Source: a virus. From it: a DNA stretch of 22,876 bases. The position numbers and the translations under genes are program-made. Every line of letters begins with the position of its first letter. Within the stretch, counting starts at the first letter, position 1. Below are positions 3-22,330 of this stretch, in pieces. The DNA lies in IMG/VR virus record IMGVR_UViG_3300035670_001301, positions 1 to 22,876 of that record. One strand, 5' to 3'. A model generated the notes under the pieces. That model had not been told where the DNA came from and ran no database searches. It saw only the letters and a program-made list of their open reading frames with translations.

Positions 3-1088
3 GGTGTGGGGGCTCTGCTTCCGAGCAAGGAGTTCGCCGCTATCGCCACCTCGCTGATGGCCCTGGGTATGGTGGCTGGCTTCATCGGCCGTGCCATGGG
101 TGGGGATGACGAGGACAAGAACGGCATCAACGACCTGGATCAGATCCCCACGGGCAAGCGTGCCACCTCGATCGTGCTGCTGCCGGGTACCCCGCTGGGT
201 GCACCCATCCCTCTGGCCTACGGCTGGAACGTCTTCTATGCAATGGGCACCTTCATGTCGGACTCCATCTTTGGAGACACCCCGCTGAAGCAAACGGCCA
301 TGAGGGTGACGTCAGCCTTCATCAACTCCTTCTGGCCCACGGGTGCGAAGGACACGGGCAACCCTGTCTATGACACGCTGGGCAACCTGGTCCCCACGGC
401 AATCTCCCCGGTCGTAGACCTGGCCATGAATGAGAACCGCCAGGGTAGCCCGATCTACAAGGACAACAAGTTCGGTGGAGCAGAGGAGTCCCCGGCCTAC
501 CGCAACTTCGACTCGGCTTCCCCGATCTCGACGTTCGTCTTCCAAGGGCTGAATAACCTGACCGGTGGAAACCGCTACGAGCCCGGCATGGTGAGCATCA
601 ACCCGGCATGGGTCGACCACCTGGCCAGCTCCTACCTGCCTGGACCGATCACAGATGTGGGGCGTGCAGCCAACCTGGGTATCCGCGCTGCTATCGGCCG
701 TGACGTAGACAACGTACCTCTACCCCTGGTCGATCGCTTCGGAACCAAGGTGAGCCCACAGTGGGACGCTGGCGCCTTCCGTCGTGCCCAGACCTACGTG
801 GACACGAAGTACAAGGCGGCGATCACTTCCTTTGGCGAGGACCGGGAGAAGTTCCTGAAGAAGGACCCGAACCTGGGATACGCCAAGAACAGCCTGGACC
901 GGATTGATCAGACCCTGCGCACTCTCAGAACCAACCTTCGGGCCGTTGAGCAGAACCCCAACGTACCCTTCTCAGAGAAGGTGGCAACGAGGAACAAGGT
1001 CGTCCAGCTCGAGCGTGCCTACTACCGTCAGGCAGTGGAGCTCGCAACCAAGGCTGGGTTCAAAGACCAGGTTCTTGCGGATAACTGA
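3..1088 (+). CDS. Large virion protein, C-terminal part (LPD38-like), 5' truncated
   Basis: The frame is open to the left edge, so this is the last ~360 residues of a longer protein. It begins with a hydrophobic, Gly/Ala-rich segment (about residues 10-35), followed by a Gly/Pro/Asn-rich region with many short motifs, and ends in a charged, helical tail. This layout matches the C-terminal 'large polyvalent protein-associated domain 38' found at the end of very large internal virion or ejection-type phage proteins; I assign it from memory of the family, not from a search. It would be the last gene of the late operon that starts with terminase and portal at the other end of the window. Its 3' end overlaps the convergent gene at 1060-1422 by 29 bp. 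Confidence 0.6.
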   Translation, partial: GVGALLPSKEFAAIATSLMALGMVAGFIGRAMGGDDEDKNGINDLDQIPTGKRATSIVLLPGTPLGAPIPLAYGWNVFYAMGTFMSDSIFGDTPLKQTAMRVTSAFINSFWPTGAKDTGNPVYDTLGNLVPTAISPVVDLAMNENRQGSPIYKDNKFGGAEESPAYRNFDSASPISTFVFQGLNNLTGGNRYEPGMVSINPAWVDHLASSYLPGPITDVGRAANLGIRAAIGRDVDNVPLPLVDRFGTKVSPQWDAGAFRRAQTYVDTKYKAAITSFGEDREKFLKKDPNLGYAKNSLDRIDQTLRTLRTNLRAVEQNPNVPFSEKVATRNKVVQLERAYYRQAVELATKAGFKDQVLADN

Positions 1089-8266: not shown

Positions 8267-8549
8267 ATGCGGTGGTGATCGTTGGGTACCTAACAAGGGA
8301 GACGGCGGGGTCACTACCAAAGAGTCCCTACCGAAGGAAAGTGCAGGAAGCAGGGACAGGGGTGGCGAAGACAGAGCCCCTTGCACGTACGTCTGTCGGG
8401 TGTTCTGGCTCCGAAGGGCAAGACTGAAGGCGTACCTGGATAGGCTAGGTGCGTCTTCACCAAAGGGCAAGGGGTTTATTAACACGTATATAAAGGGAAC
8501 ACGATTCCCAAGCCCGAAAGGGCAAAGAAAAAAAACAAAGGGTAAGTAG
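8267..8549 (+). ncRNA. Structured leader of the early operon, about 280 nt
   Basis: No convincing gene lies between the early promoter and the ATG at 8550. An open frame exists, but it starts inside the -35 and its product looks like chance. The region is purine-rich and has a strong hairpin at 8425-8459: a 13-bp stem with two G-U pairs and a 9-nt loop. Alternative pairings exist upstream: GTCCCT (8324) with AGGGAC (8352), and GTGCA (8341) with TGCAC (8382), which cross. AAGGGCAA-type motifs recur three times. It could be an antitermination or attenuation leader; there is no clear terminator in it. Confidence 0.4.
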
Positions 8550-10238
8550 ATGAAAGACTGGTACGCATTAGGGATTGACACGAAGGGGCACACCTCCGGC
8601 GAGATCAAGACTGTTTGTCCGAGTTGTTCGCACACCAGAAAGAAACGCTCTTACCCATGTCTTAACGTCAATCTCGATAAAGGCGTTTACAACTGCTGGC
8701 ATTGCGGGTGGTCGGGCGGTATCGGGAAAGACTTCACTCCACGGGTACCGATGCAGAAGACATACCGAAAACCAGAGTTCAAACCACAACCACTCCCCAC
8801 TGGCGCCTTAGGCTTTCTCACTAAGCGTGGCCTCACCCCCGAGGTCATTGGGCGCAACCAGATCTCAGCTGTCACGGTGTACATGCCCCAGATCGAGGGC
8901 GAGGTCGAGGCGATCGCCTTCCCGTTTGTTAAGAACGGCGAGGTGGTGAACGTCAAGTACCGAGACAAGGAGAAGAACTTCCGCCAAGAGAGTGGGGCGG
9001 AGAAGACGTTCTTCAAGTACGACGACATTGATCCTAAGTGCACGATCATTACTGAGGGCGAGATGGATGCGCTCTCACTAGAGGTCGTGGGTTTCCGCAA
9101 CGCAATCTCAGTTCCAGATGGAGCGCCGACACCCGATGCGAAGAACCTCGAAAACAAATTCACCTTCCTCGATGAACCCATTATCGACTCCATCGAGAAG
9201 ATCGTTATCGCAGTTGATAATGATCCCCCCGGCAAAAGGCTGGAAGAGGAGCTCGCTCGCAGACTTGGACGGGATAGATGTTGGCGAGTGCTGTGGCCCT
9301 CTGATTGCAAAGATGCAAACGAAGTCCTCTTAAAGCACGGCACTGAAGTTCTGCGCCACTGCATTGAGTCGGCCACCCCATTCCCTGTCGAAGGGATCTT
9401 CAACCTAGAAGACTTTACCCAAGAAATCGACCACATCTACGAGCACGGATTGCCTAGTGGAATCAGCACGGGCTGGTCCAACATGGACGATCTGTACCGA
9501 CCCGTCGAAGGTCAGTGGACTCTGGTCACGGGTATCCCGGGGATGGGCAAGTCTGAGTGGCTAGATGCACTAGCAGTAAATCTTGCCCAGCAACACTTCT
9601 GGTGCTTCGGCGTCTGCTCTCCTGAGAACCAGCCGGTGACGTTCCATGCAACCAAGCTCATGGAGAAGTTCATCGGCAAGCGTCTCAGCAAAATGAGCAA
9701 GCAAGAATTTGCTGACGCCAAAGAGTGGCTGAATGTTTTCTTTAAGTTCATCCTGCCAGAAGACCGAACGCTGGACGCTGTATTAGCAAAGGCTAAAACG
9801 TTAGTCAAGCGTTACGGCATGAAGGGTCTGATTATAGACCCGTACAACGAGCTGGCACACAGCGGCCGTAGAGATAATGTTACTGAGACTGAATACGTTT
9901 CTGAGTTTCTAGCTGATATCCGTTCATTCGCACGGGACAACGGGGTCCACGTCTGGCTAGTCGCCCACCCAAAGATGATGAGGAAGGAAGGGTCGGACGG
10001 ATCGTACCCAGTGCCAACCGGGTATGACGTGGCTGGCTCGGCGCACTTCTTCAACAAGGCCGACAACATCATTGCTGTGCACCGCAACAAGGCAGACCCC
10101 TTTGCCAAGTCTGAGGTGCACGTTCAGAAGATCAGGTCCAGGTGGCTCGGCCAGCTTGGCTCCACCGCCCTCGAGTGGGACGCCAGCTGCGGCCGGTTCA
10201 ATGTCCCGACAGGTTTCTCTAATGGATTCCTGAGATGA
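8550..10238 (+). CDS. DNA primase-helicase, T7 gp4/Twinkle type
   Basis: 562 aa and bifunctional. The N-terminal zinc ribbon has Cys23/Cys26 and Cys49/Cys52 (CPSC, CWHC). The TOPRIM primase core follows, with Glu169 in IITEGEMDAL and the DxD-like pair Asp223/Asp225 in IAVDNDPPG. The C-terminal RecA-like helicase has Walker A GIPGMGKS (328-335), Walker B ending Asp430 (KGLIIDPYNEL) and the following strand VHVWLVAHPK. It would unwind and prime at the phage replication fork. AAAGGGTAAGTA precedes the ATG, and the same 12-mer precedes the gene at 10531. It overlaps the next gene by 4 bp and is the first gene of the rightward early operon. Confidence 0.9.
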   Translation: MKDWYALGIDTKGHTSGEIKTVCPSCSHTRKKRSYPCLNVNLDKGVYNCWHCGWSGGIGKDFTPRVPMQKTYRKPEFKPQPLPTGALGFLTKRGLTPEVIGRNQISAVTVYMPQIEGEVEAIAFPFVKNGEVVNVKYRDKEKNFRQESGAEKTFFKYDDIDPKCTIITEGEMDALSLEVVGFRNAISVPDGAPTPDAKNLENKFTFLDEPIIDSIEKIVIAVDNDPPGKRLEEELARRLGRDRCWRVLWPSDCKDANEVLLKHGTEVLRHCIESATPFPVEGIFNLEDFTQEIDHIYEHGLPSGISTGWSNMDDLYRPVEGQWTLVTGIPGMGKSEWLDALAVNLAQQHFWCFGVCSPENQPVTFHATKLMEKFIGKRLSKMSKQEFADAKEWLNVFFKFILPEDRTLDAVLAKAKTLVKRYGMKGLIIDPYNELAHSGRRDNVTETEYVSEFLADIRSFARDNGVHVWLVAHPKMMRKEGSDGSYPVPTGYDVAGSAHFFNKADNIIAVHRNKADPFAKSEVHVQKIRSRWLGQLGSTALEWDASCGRFNVPTGFSNGFLR

Positions 10239-13734: not shown

Positions 13735-13754
13735 GCTCCCCCTTTCGGGGGAGC
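13735..13754 (-). promoter_or_regulatory. GAAA-tetraloop hairpin at the binding site of the 57-aa gene
   Basis: On the minus strand GCTCCCCC and GGGGGAGC form a perfect 8-bp stem closed by the GNRA tetraloop GAAA, a very stable RNA hairpin. It lies 9 bp before the ATG at 13725 and 8 bp after the stop of the 90-aa gene. The 3' arm is the likely ribosome binding site, so the fold would hide it. No T run follows, so it is not a terminator. Confidence 0.5.
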
Positions 13755-13762
13755 CCCTCCGT

Positions 13763-14035
13763 CTAGTTCACTGCAGCTGACTGAGCAGCCTCACGCTTGC
13801 GTGCCCAGACTTCCTTCATCGTCTTGCTTTGATGACGACGAGAGGCTGGCGTCCAGGTCCAGTTGTTCTTCTGCTTTGCTTTCGCAGGAGCAGGAGTGCT
13901 GATACTCCGGGTCACGCCGAGCTGCACCTCGAGCTCACGACGTGTGATGAGTAGGGCCAGCTCCTCGTCAACGCTGATCTTGTCAGCCTCAGCGAGTTTG
14001 GTCAGGCGGGTGAACAGGTCTTTCGTGTTAAGCAT
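13763..14035 (-). CDS. Hypothetical basic protein, 90 aa
   Basis: The ATG at 14035 has an AAGGAGC site and lies inside the last codons of the previous gene (8-bp overlap). The N-terminal half is helical and acidic (TKLAEADKISVDEELALLIT) and the C-terminal half is basic, with Lys-rich and Pro/Ala-rich linkers. It may bind nucleic acid or an acidic partner. No family recognised. Confidence 0.55.
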   Translation of the reverse strand: MLNTKDLFTRLTKLAEADKISVDEELALLITRRELEVQLGVTRSISTPAPAKAKQKNNWTWTPASRRHQSKTMKEVWARKREAAQSAAVN

Positions 14036-18296: not shown

Positions 18297-18338
18297 AAAA
18301 AAAAACTAGCAACCGAGGGGCGTAAACCCCCCGGTCGC
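18297..18338 (-). terminator. Intrinsic terminator between two accessory genes
   Basis: On the minus strand a 12-bp stem with G-U pairs (arms 18327-18338 and 18309-18320, loop 18321-18326) is followed after CTAG by nine T residues. It lies between the 113-aa gene and the 107-aa gene, so it may end most transcription from the upstream part of the block and leave a smaller fraction for the amidoligase genes, or a promoter may lie just after it. Confidence 0.75.
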
Positions 18339-18345
18339 TACGCTC

Positions 18346-19658: not shown

Positions 19659-20041
19659 CGATGGGGTACACAAAGCCCGATCTGCGAGAGCGGATCAAGG
19701 ATCGAATCATGAAAGGCTCCAAGGGTGGTGACCCTGGGGAGTGGTCAGCCAGGAAGGCTCAGCTGCTAGCGCAGGAGTATGAGAAGTCTGGTGGTGGGTA
19801 CAGCGGGAAGAAGAACGCGTCCCAAGAGTCTTTGTCCAAATGGACCAAAGAGAAGTGGCGCACTTCGGATGGGAAGCCCTCTGAGGGGAAGAAGCGCTAC
19901 CTGCCTGAGAAAGCCTGGTCGGCGTTGTCTGCTTCTGAGAAAGCGGCCACTAACAAAGCCAAGGCTGAGGGCAACAAGCAGGGCAAGCAGTTTGTGAAGC
20001 AGCCCGCCAATATTGCAAAGAAGACGTCCAAGTACAGATGA
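19655..20041 (+). CDS. DUF5872-like protein, 128 aa
   Basis: Basic, lysine-rich protein. The core GGDPGEWSARKAQLLAQEYE, WTKEKWRTSDGKPS and KKRYLPEKAWSALSASEKAA matches the DUF5872 family pattern found in phages and in some bacteria near terminase genes; I recognise it by pattern. The first 25 residues are charged. ATG at 19655 overlaps the previous stop; 19661 is a second candidate start. It may bind nucleic acid because of its charge. The end overlaps the next start by 4 bp. Confidence 0.65.
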   Translation: MTMGYTKPDLRERIKDRIMKGSKGGDPGEWSARKAQLLAQEYEKSGGGYSGKKNASQESLSKWTKEKWRTSDGKPSEGKKRYLPEKAWSALSASEKAATNKAKAEGNKQGKQFVKQPANIAKKTSKYR

Positions 20042-20298
20042 GAAGACAGGAACTAGAGAAGATCCTTCGCTCTTACGAGCCGATGAAACACGTGAACGTG
20101 GATTGGCCGGATGCCCTCAAGCATTCCCTGCATCCCACCCTGTACGTGATCAACGGGGTGGTGAACGTCCGGGGTGAACCTCACGCCTACGAGCTCGAGG
20201 TCGACGGCCGTGCCTTTGGCGACCAGTCTGATGTGGAGCTGCTGGTCAAGGCGCTCCTCAGTTCGTTTGAGAAAGCCGAGCGGTTGACAGAACAATAA
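20038..20298 (+). CDS. Hypothetical protein, 86 aa
   Basis: Starts MRRQELEKILRSYEPMKHVN and is mixed strand and helix, with HPTLYVINGVVNVRGEPHAY as a strand pair and a C-terminal acidic helix. No family recognised. The start overlaps the previous stop (ATGA). It is the last gene before the structured intergenic region and terminator. Confidence 0.55.
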   Translation: MRRQELEKILRSYEPMKHVNVDWPDALKHSLHPTLYVINGVVNVRGEPHAYELEVDGRAFGDQSDVELLVKALLSSFEKAERLTEQ

Positions 20299-20653
20299 GC
20301 ACAGCTTATCATTGCAAACTGAAAGTTAAGTTTTCAATTTGCAGGGATACGCATGGTGACTACCTCTGCTGCGCCGGGAGTTTTCTTCGAAGTTTTCGCC
20401 CGGCGTAGTCACCAGCCGCATACCTGAGACCCCAGCCGGCGGTGGGGATGAATAACACCGGCAGTGAAGGCGCCCATCTCCTTCGCCCCACAAGGGCAAA
20501 CAAATTGGACGTGACTTCACGATTTACCCCCCACGCCTAGAACCTGGCAAGGCCGGGTGCTGGCCCCGAAGCGGGGCGCTGCGCACCACGGGGGGACCTA
20601 CACCAGCCCACCCACGTCGAAAGGCGGGGTGGGTTTTTCTTTTGGGAAAGACT
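20299..20653 (+). other. Structured intergenic region before the terminase
   Basis: About 355 bp without a convincing gene. It contains a near-perfect 12-bp hairpin (20313-20343), a strong two-part hairpin (GGTGACTA 20355-20362 with TAGTCACC 20406-20413, and CGCCGGG 20372-20378 with CCCGGCG 20399-20405), a GC-rich hairpin near 20555-20588 and a terminator at 20607-20643. It could be a small RNA gene, an antitermination target, or a cos/pac packaging site, since it lies right before the terminase genes. Confidence 0.45.
20607..20643 (+). terminator. Intrinsic terminator just before the terminase genes
   Basis: CCCACCC (20607-20613) and GGGTGGG (20627-20633) form a 7-bp stem with a 13-nt loop, followed by TTTTTCTTTT. 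It lies 11 bp before the terminase small subunit start and would stop transcription from upstream unless an antiterminator acts. No promoter is obvious between it and the terminase genes, so regulated readthrough is likely. Confidence 0.75.
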
Positions 20654-20890
20654 ATGGCAGCTCGAATCAGAAAAATACGTCATGACGACCAGACTCGTCT
20701 GAAGATCAAGGTTGCCCAGCTGATCAACCGCCTCACGGCACACGCAGCTGGGGAGGTAGAACTCTCTTCCACGCAAGTGCGTGCGATCGAGGTCCTGCTC
20801 AGGAAAGCCCTTCCCGATCTGTCAGACGTTCGTGTGGATACCGAGTCCGCACCGATCACCTTCAATTTCGATTTGAACAAAAAGAACTAA
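20654..20890 (+). CDS. Terminase small subunit-like protein, 78 aa
   Basis: The block DQTRLKIKVAQLINRLTAHA, GEVELSSTQVRAIEVLLRKA, LPDLSDV is the pattern of small phage terminase subunits (helical DNA-binding domain plus a short oligomerisation part). It sits directly before the large subunit, the usual order. The start at 20654 is preceded by GGGAAAG; an in-frame codon at 20642 lies in the terminator tail and is unlikely. Confidence 0.75.
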   Translation: MAARIRKIRHDDQTRLKIKVAQLINRLTAHAAGEVELSSTQVRAIEVLLRKALPDLSDVRVDTESAPITFNFDLNKKN

Positions 20891-22330
20891 TTGGAAGTCA
20901 TCAAGTACTCGCCCCCGGGTAAGAACGCCCGGGCATTCCACAACAGCAACGCATTCGTTCGTGGCCTGATGGGGCCGGTCGGATCAGGCAAGTCCTCATC
21001 CTGCTGTGTGGAGATCGTGGCCAGGGCCCTGAGGCAGGAACCCTCCCAGGATGGGATACGGCGCTCTCGCTGGCTCATCACCCGGAACACCTACCCGGAA
21101 CTCAAGTCGACCACCATCAAGACCTGGCAGACCTGGTTCCCTGAGAACGTGGCGCCCATGAAGTGGGATGCGCCCATCACCTCCACGATGAACATCCGGG
21201 ATATCGGGGACGGTACCGGCCTGGAGCTCGAGGTGATGTTCATGGCCCTAGACCGGCCGACCGAGACCGGGAAACTGAGATCGCTGGAGTTGACCGGTGC
21301 CTGGATGAATGAGGCGTCTGAGCAGCCCAAGGAGATCTTTGACATGCTCACCCAGCGGGTCGGGCGCTTCCCCTCCAAGCTGCAGGGTGGCCCGAGCTGG
21401 AACGGCATCATCCTGGATACCAACCCGCCGGACGACGACCACTGGTACTACAAGCTCGCTGAAGAGGAGCGCCCCAAGGAGTGGGAGTTCTTCCGTCAGC
21501 CTGGCGGTCTACTCAAGCATGTCGACGGCGAGGCCGTCCAGTTCGAACCCAACCCCGACGCAGAGAACGTGATGAACCTGCCGGGTGGGTACAACTACTA
21601 CATGCAGCAGATTCCCTCCAAGACGGAGGACTGGATCAACGTCTTCCTACTGGGGAGCTACGGATCCACGGCGGACGGCAAGCCCGTCTACCCAGAGTTC
21701 AAGGACAAGGTGCACACCCTGCCAGATGACGTCGAGGCCGAGCGTGGCCTGCCGATCGTCCTGGGGTGGGACTTTGGCCTTACCCCCGCTTGTGTGTTGC
21801 TACAGGTAACAGCAAGAGGAAAGATTGTCATCATTGATGAATTCGTCTCAGAAGACATGGGCATCCGGCAGTTCGCCAACGACGTGGTCAAGCCCGTCCT
21901 TCTGAACAAGTACGCAGGCTTTCAGATCATTTCTGCTGGCGACCCTGCGGGGAACATCCGGGCCCAGACGGATGAGCGCACCTGTCTACAGGAGCTGCTC
22001 GAGGCCGGGATCGCTACCGAGCCAGCATCGACCAACGACTTCGTTATCCGTCGTGAGGCCGTGGCTTTCTTCCTGAACAAGATGTCAGACGGAGAGCCTG
22101 CCTTCGCAATCAATCCCCGTTGCACGACCCTGAGAAAGGGCTTCAACGGGCGCTTTAAGTTTGAGCGGCTGAAGACCTCTGGTCCCGCACGTTTCAAGGA
22201 CAGGCCCCTGAAAGACGAGTACTCGCACATCCATGATGCGCTTCAGTACGCCTGTATGAAAGTACGCGCTGGCACCACCCCGGTTCGAGCAAAGCCGATC
22301 GTTAAGAAATCCGCGAAAGGGTGGACATGA
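20891..22330 (+). CDS. terL: Terminase large subunit
   Basis: 479 aa. Packaging motor and nuclease. Walker A is GPVGSGKS (28-35), the acidic pair near Walker B ends in WMNEAS (Glu141), and the RNase H-like nuclease has Asp294 (LGWDFGLTPA), Asp351 (SAGDPAG) and Asp449 (HDALQYA). It starts at a TTG directly after the small subunit stop (TAA), with no good binding site, so translation is probably coupled. The end overlaps the portal start by 4 bp. Confidence 0.95.
   Translation: MEVIKYSPPGKNARAFHNSNAFVRGLMGPVGSGKSSSCCVEIVARALRQEPSQDGIRRSRWLITRNTYPELKSTTIKTWQTWFPENVAPMKWDAPITSTMNIRDIGDGTGLELEVMFMALDRPTETGKLRSLELTGAWMNEASEQPKEIFDMLTQRVGRFPSKLQGGPSWNGIILDTNPPDDDHWYYKLAEEERPKEWEFFRQPGGLLKHVDGEAVQFEPNPDAENVMNLPGGYNYYMQQIPSKTEDWINVFLLGSYGSTADGKPVYPEFKDKVHTLPDDVEAERGLPIVLGWDFGLTPACVLLQVTARGKIVIIDEFVSEDMGIRQFANDVVKPVLLNKYAGFQIISAGDPAGNIRAQTDERTCLQELLEAGIATEPASTNDFVIRREAVAFFLNKMSDGEPAFAINPRCTTLRKGFNGRFKFERLKTSGPARFKDRPLKDEYSHIHDALQYACMKVRAGTTPVRAKPIVKKSAKGWT

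Follow-up and report, generated by a model that had tools for sequence, protein, structure and literature searches.

A conserved pseudoknotted RNA before the terminase genes of a phage, probably a divergent branch of the Proteo-phage-1 superfamily

The region 20299-20653, directly upstream of the terminase genes, almost certainly harbours a conserved structured non-coding RNA which, judged by structure and family relations, forms a divergent branch of the Proteo-phage-1 superfamily (Rfam RF03044). The window, i.e., the whole stretch of DNA that was analysed, is an entire virus record of 22,876 bases; the record itself is a fragment. A conserved core of 95 nt in mid-region (20426-20520) shows strong compensatory change among relatives. 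Comparison with these relatives shows a predicted H-type pseudoknot and, 3' of it, a stem P3 in two parts whose GC/GUGA internal loop is invariant. All evidence presented here comes from sequence analysis. Both this core and a promoter at 20284-20312 had been overlooked in the initial annotation of the region.

Layout of the region and its neighbours

Between the end of the ORF at 20038-20298 and position 20654, no protein-coding gene is evident. The features of the region and of the genes behind it are as follows.

20284-20312 (+): promoter-like site TTGACA-17-TATCAT, sigma-70, near-consensus (11/12 consensus bases)
20312-20344 (+): small hairpin at the 5' end of the predicted RNA (-9.5 kcal/mol, z -2.9)
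20342-20426 (+): long hairpin enclosing the stem 20355-20413; 22-nt inverted repeat, 82% complementary
20527-20595 (+): GC-rich hairpin, candidate in the P4 (GNRA-type) position of relatives (fold with z -1.0 only)
20605-20643 (+): intrinsic terminator, AGCCCACCC...GGGTGGGTT then TTTCTTTT (-23.3 kcal/mol, z -4.2)
20654-20890 (+): 78-aa ORF, putative terminase small subunit (TerS), labelled by position
20891-22330 (+): terminase large subunit (TerL; phrog_2, E 1.2e-29; Terminase_3)

An equally good site as the promoter was found in 0/100 shuffles. Its predicted transcription start is near 20319, and together with the terminator it predicts an RNA of about 320 nt (~20319 to ~20640). Most relatives show no comparable site and no clear sigma-70 promoter.

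The 15-bp two-part stem that the initial annotation had seen at 20355-20413 is recovered as two stacked stems, GGTGACTA/TAGTCACC and GCGCCGGG/CCCGGCGT (-29.7 kcal/mol, z -3.1 vs. dinucleotide shuffles). Its description of the 355 bp as highly structured holds for individual stems, but less so for the whole stretch, since the + strand of 20299-20653 exceeds the stability expected by chance only to a moderate degree (z -2.2, 1/100 shuffles). We thus consider folding energy alone as weak evidence; what decides is the comparison of the core with its relatives (see below). The 5' hairpins and the candidate P4 counterpart are predicted from the folding of the window; L002 has too little space after the preceding stop codon to fit the long hairpin before the core. 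The minus strand of the region folds well, too (z -4.9). A minus-strand RNA was rejected, because the orientation of promoter and terminator as well as an excess of G-U over A-C pairs (see below) favour the + strand.

The terminator, which L001 and L002 also have at the same place, leaves 10-11 bp up to the ATG at 20654. This confirms both its early placement at 11 bp before the next gene and the claim that no promoter follows, i.e., the gap is too short for any promoter such that the packaging genes need readthrough. The name terminase small subunit, also given initially, agrees with the position of the 78-aa ORF before a confirmed TerL, while neither Pfam nor PHROGs provides a match for it. 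The ORF is kept beside TerL in L001, L002, L051 and L063.

Some further observations concern the rest of the window. The ORF before the element (20038-20298, +, 86 aa) is without match in Pfam or PHROGs, and L001 and L002 likewise show an 86-aa ORF at its place. Positions 6-1088 (+) encode the C-terminal part of a protein, in which the LPD38 domain of large polyvalent phage proteins is recognised (E 1.6e-22). A second structured RNA of the same phage is found at 8271-8401 (+), where the Rfam Betaproteobacteria-1 sRNA (RF02932) matches with 76 bits vs. 49.4, upstream of a primase/helicase gene (8550-10238). A very strong terminator-like hairpin (15 pairs, then nine T) is located at 18307-18340 (-). 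A tRNA search of the window found none.

The conserved core and its covariation

In relatives, the elements of the core are ordered S1, loop AGCNNN, S1', an A-rich linker ending in AAC, S2', AG and stem P3. That is, S2' pairs with the loop of S1, which results in the H-type pseudoknot. The outer stem of P3 starts at the G of AG and is followed by the internal loop GC/GUGA, the inner stem and a C/U-rich loop; many members show a hairpin with a GNRA-type loop 3' of P3. The respective parts in the window are listed below.

20430-20433 with 20444-20447 (+): S1 stem CCCC/GGGG, first pseudoknot helix; 3/4 alignment pairs change on both sides
20435-20439 with 20458-20462 (+): S2 pseudoknot helix GCCGG/CCGGC; covaries in relatives
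20464-20520 (+): P3, composed of outer stem P3a, internal loop and inner stem P3b
20464-20469 with 20515-20520 (+): P3a outer stem GTGAAG/CTTCAC; 38 different strand pairs among 48 sequences
20470-20471 / 20511-20514 (+): P3 internal loop GC / GUGA, from comparison with relatives
20478-20483 (+): CUCCUU in the P3 loop, anti-Shine-Dalgarno-like; enriched in relatives

S1 is enriched over swapped flanks. Among relatives, S2 occurs as GCCGG/CCGGC, GCGGA/TCCGC, GCGGG/CCCGC, GCGGT/ACCGC and GCTGG/CCAGC. The P3 loops contain CTCCT in 24/48 and TCCTT in 27/48 cases, where about 3 are expected.

The starting set comprised 80 loci fetched by TerL similarity. BLASTN against these found the part of the region around 20426-20466 again in L001, L002, L048, L071 and L072, each time upstream of terminase. 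A descriptor of S1 and S2 matched 12 of the TerL-selected loci as well as the window, compared to 0 matches in 2.4 Mb of mononucleotide-shuffled sequence. All these matches had P3a with GC/GUGA, P3 not being required. We also applied the reverse selection by P3, where S2 was not required. This resulted in 22 matches (0 in 3.6 Mb of shuffled sequence), most of them with a pairing S2. Several matches flagged as unpaired in this selection, i.e., L046, L059 and the L073-L076 group, show an S2 of 4 or 5 pairs on inspection, while the match in L009 looks like chance. With S1, S2 and P3a over all loci, 76 matches were found vs. 2 in 4.5 Mb of shuffled sequence; on visual inspection, a few of the 76 are chance matches.

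For counting, we used an alignment of 42 rows with trimmed P3 loops, scored on the stated structure. The covariation search in relatives that the initial annotation had proposed is strongly positive: 94.0% of the cells are paired (64.3% in shuffles), although the percentages of S1 and P3a are biased upward by their use in row selection, and 234 cells are doubly compensated (74.7 in shuffles). The covariation score is 0.742, and sliding the partners by 1-3 columns lowers it to 0.128 or less. P3b was not used in the selection, and S2 was likewise not required in the TerL-selected rows. Here, P3b is 87% paired and shows strong covariation with 81 doubly changed cells. Its G-U pairs outnumber its A-C pairs (23 vs. 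5), from which we conclude that the RNA corresponds to the + strand.

Family, distribution and genomic settings

Rfam does not call the region at its gathering threshold, i.e., RF03044 scores 15.9 bits in the window for a threshold of 42. A loose Rfam scan aligned the core stretch to the second half of Proteo-phage-1. The window element is thus best described as a likely divergent relative, not as a member of RF03044 as defined. Both share the phage setting and the pseudoknot core AGCCGG...GUG...AAnAACACCGGCAG, and hairpin 2 of Proteo-phage-1, with its loop AGCCGG and the downstream AACACCGGCAG, is present in the window alignment. Concerning hairpin 1, the window hairpin 20342-20426 takes the same position without sequence likeness, while L002 has none. 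The RF03044 model includes neither the P3 module with GC/GUGA nor the S2 variants. The two branches are tied together by L252, since it passes both RF03044 (48.7 bits) and our core model R1 (54.6 bits), which was built on trimmed loops and hence scores real sequences lower.

At its thresholds, RF03044 recognises only L088, L200 and L252 of 20 loci and L524 of another 4; that is, Rfam misses most members of this very widespread phage family. Proteo-phage-1 is the sole part of the superfamily that we found described, and our literature search, outside of which the original description lies, found no paper naming it. The small Rfam motif would become part of a much larger and well-defined RNA superfamily, for which the structure provides a strong signature, i.e., the pseudoknot, the GC/GUGA internal loop, the CUCCUU loop and often a GNRA-type hairpin.

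Sub-threshold Rfam matches to CRISPR-DR29, abiF and ctRNA were judged to be chance. In pistol ribozymes, a helix encloses the pseudoknot strand. This helix is missing here and no Rfam match was found, such that a pistol-like architecture was rejected as well. The Rfam Proteo-phage-1 model covers only the first 82 nt of Pseudomonas-type members (L201, L134, L103, L087). These show further conserved pieces up to ~200 nt past the core, namely two hairpins (CGATGCA and GGAAAGAC); tRNA genes come immediately after these pieces in some of the members.

In the viral collection, patterns with three kinds of S2 gave at least 120 matches each, where part of the matches of the two variant-stem patterns are chance according to an S1/P3 filter. 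The bacterial genome collection provided 77 stretches, many in Pseudomonas and others in Xanthomonadales, Rhizobiales, Burkholderiales and other Proteobacteria; some of the 77 (e.g., in Bacteroidales and Lachnospiraceae) look like chance in coding sequence. Model R1 found only the starting genome among 185 genomes of one class (E <= 1e-5, strict filters), which suggests that the element is rare in bacterial chromosomes.

Among cultured phages, the element is found in PMG1 (full pseudoknot and P3), Cronobacter phage JK004, PS-1, phiAH14a and Solano, with a weaker match in F116. Most of these records have no annotated feature under the match. BLASTN of the whole region against cultured phages found nothing, and no clear copy was seen in BPP-1, BcepC6B and Ss1, the latter two with TerL identities of 41-42%. 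Of the TerL-relative records, 11/36 carry one copy and 25/36 none, including contigs above 50 kb, noting that records may be fragments.

Two side observations result from these searches. Record G018 (L134) holds two copies of the pseudoknot pattern with different S1 stems, at 13745-13780 (-) and 27519-27553 (+). In a Salinisphaera prophage region, the pseudoknot element is followed after ~350 nt by a type II hammerhead ribozyme at L248:3975-4051 (+) (RF02276, 73.4 bits).

The gene that follows the element varies, based on mechanical gene calls around the motif for metagenome contigs.

Terminase small subunit: L135, L162, L178
Tape measure: L226, L255
Adaptor/structural protein: L048
Baseplate hub: L214
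Tail chaperone: L211
Holin: L246

The early operon hosts the element in PMG1, upstream of the exonuclease/Gam cluster, and in F116, near the CI repressor. For phiAH14a and Solano, it is located between the nin/replication side and the lysis-terminase operon. tRNA genes are found within ~400 nt of the element in L048, L060, L087, L096 and L103. It faces a convergent Rz-like spanin gene in L113 and a convergent small lipoprotein-like ORF without profile match in L200. Some phages have the element at a distance of 2-16 kb to TerL or on the opposite strand. A terminator separates element and next gene in the window and in about a third of the unique members, while many members are in 5' untranslated regions without terminator. 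For instance, L101, L162, L178, L193, L255 and PMG1 show a start codon ~30-140 nt after the element and no terminator in between. Given this variable position and the 11/36 occurrence, neither a fixed packaging role nor the control of one particular gene fits.

Possible functions

Overall, we find a trans-acting non-coding RNA module with an anti-Shine-Dalgarno-like loop to be the best explanation, with about even chances of being correct. The RNA would be made from its own promoter, starting near 20319 and ending at the terminator near 20640, while the downstream packaging genes would be read by run-through. It would then work in trans as a folded, probably protein-bound RNA, and phages would keep it as an optional module that can move, similar to their tRNA genes. 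Action in trans by itself may equally well be right or wrong. In addition, the exposed CUCCUU loop might pair with Shine-Dalgarno sequences of phage or host mRNAs and tune translation during infection. This step is tentative and rather doubtful. It is suggested by the enrichment of CUCCU/UCCUU in the P3 loop, since these are complementary to Shine-Dalgarno sequences; a comparison of the loop with start sites in the window provided generic Shine-Dalgarno pairing and no specific target.

A trans-acting RNA is consistent with the covariation, the + strand excess of G-U over A-C pairs and the family link via L252. It further agrees with the lack of a constant neighbour gene, the stand-alone case L113, the optional occurrence (11/36 TerL-relative records) and the conservation of the CUCCUU loop. 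The window's promoter and terminator, the CUCCUU loop and the L113 case would suit a trans-acting sRNA, and the early suggestion that the region could be a small RNA gains support from the conserved structure with its own predicted promoter and terminator. On the other hand, many members reside in 5' untranslated regions without terminator, which fits a cis role equally, and a clear sigma-70 promoter is missing in most relatives. An extended version is improbable: the widespread module, mostly unannotated even in PMG1, could be a trans-acting pseudoknotted ribonucleoprotein that reprograms translation via its anti-Shine-Dalgarno loop or blocks a host factor during infection, and could shift between early operons, late operons and the vicinity of tRNA genes in the manner of a gene cassette. 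Since the family occurs in cultured Pseudomonas and Cronobacter phages, the function of this common phage RNA is directly testable.

The best rival to the trans-acting module is a leader that acts in cis and renders RNA polymerase insensitive to terminators (put-like, or a counterpart of lambda PR'-6S RNA-tR'), such that run-through switches on the packaging operon. We rate it best because of the order of promoter, RNA, terminator and packaging genes and because several phages have the element close to operon starts, but still consider it unlikely. In the lambda PR' late leader, a promoter and a terminated leader RNA (6S) are followed by late genes that are transcribed by read-through. The window shows this layout of promoter, leader, terminator and late genes, with no other promoter for the packaging genes. 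L001 and L002 keep the terminator at the same place, and the copies between the nin/replication side and the lysis-terminase operon (phiAH14a, Solano) as well as those in early operons (PMG1, F116) fit such a leader, too. The antitermination site that had been proposed initially fits the layout of the window, but members such as L113 have no co-directional operon behind them and thus nothing to antiterminate. Furthermore, the element also occurs inside late operons just before tape-measure genes, where no terminator is seen. Unlike the lambda 6S/PR' leader, the family is found outside late operons, too. For Solano and phiAH14a, a profile scan of the genes that precede the element found no match to the antiterminator Q family. 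Lambda 6S RNA is reported to be Hfq-dependent, with its function unexplored (PMC12197685). The HK022 put RNA also is a structured phage RNA soon after a promoter and acts in cis, but its ~70 nt form two stem-loops (PMC9378689), an architecture that differs from the pseudoknot and internal-loop stem P3 of the window element.

The start codons within ~30-140 nt and without intervening terminator (the six cases given above) would be explained by a cis-acting 5' UTR element that stabilises the downstream mRNA or controls its translation. We regard this as unlikely, given that the function of the downstream gene differs between phages and that the window, like about a third of the unique members, has a terminator before the next gene. 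The optional occurrence, mosaic position, single copy and strongly conserved fold form the pattern of an accessory module and would also suit an RNA that, as decoy or inhibitor, blocks a host factor of defence or RNA processing. This is quite unlikely, since neither a known defence partner nor a resemblance was found and the Rfam matches to CRISPR repeats and abiF are weak.

Finally, a packaging RNA or packaging start site, the latter also among the initial suggestions, is very improbable. In the window, TerS/TerL follow directly after the element, and wherever TerL relatives were found to carry it, it precedes TerL on the same strand. However, it is absent in 25/36 TerL-relative records, several of them above 50 kb, and elsewhere is found in early operons, at 2-16 kb from TerL or on the opposite strand; a packaging site is also at odds with a conservation as RNA, including G-U pairs. 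This distribution, together with the varied neighbours, argues against a packaging site, a pRNA and a terminase-specific switch alike. Like the window RNA, the phi29 pRNA is a structured phage RNA beside packaging genes, but in contrast to phi29-type pRNA the element is no constant companion of the packaging motor.
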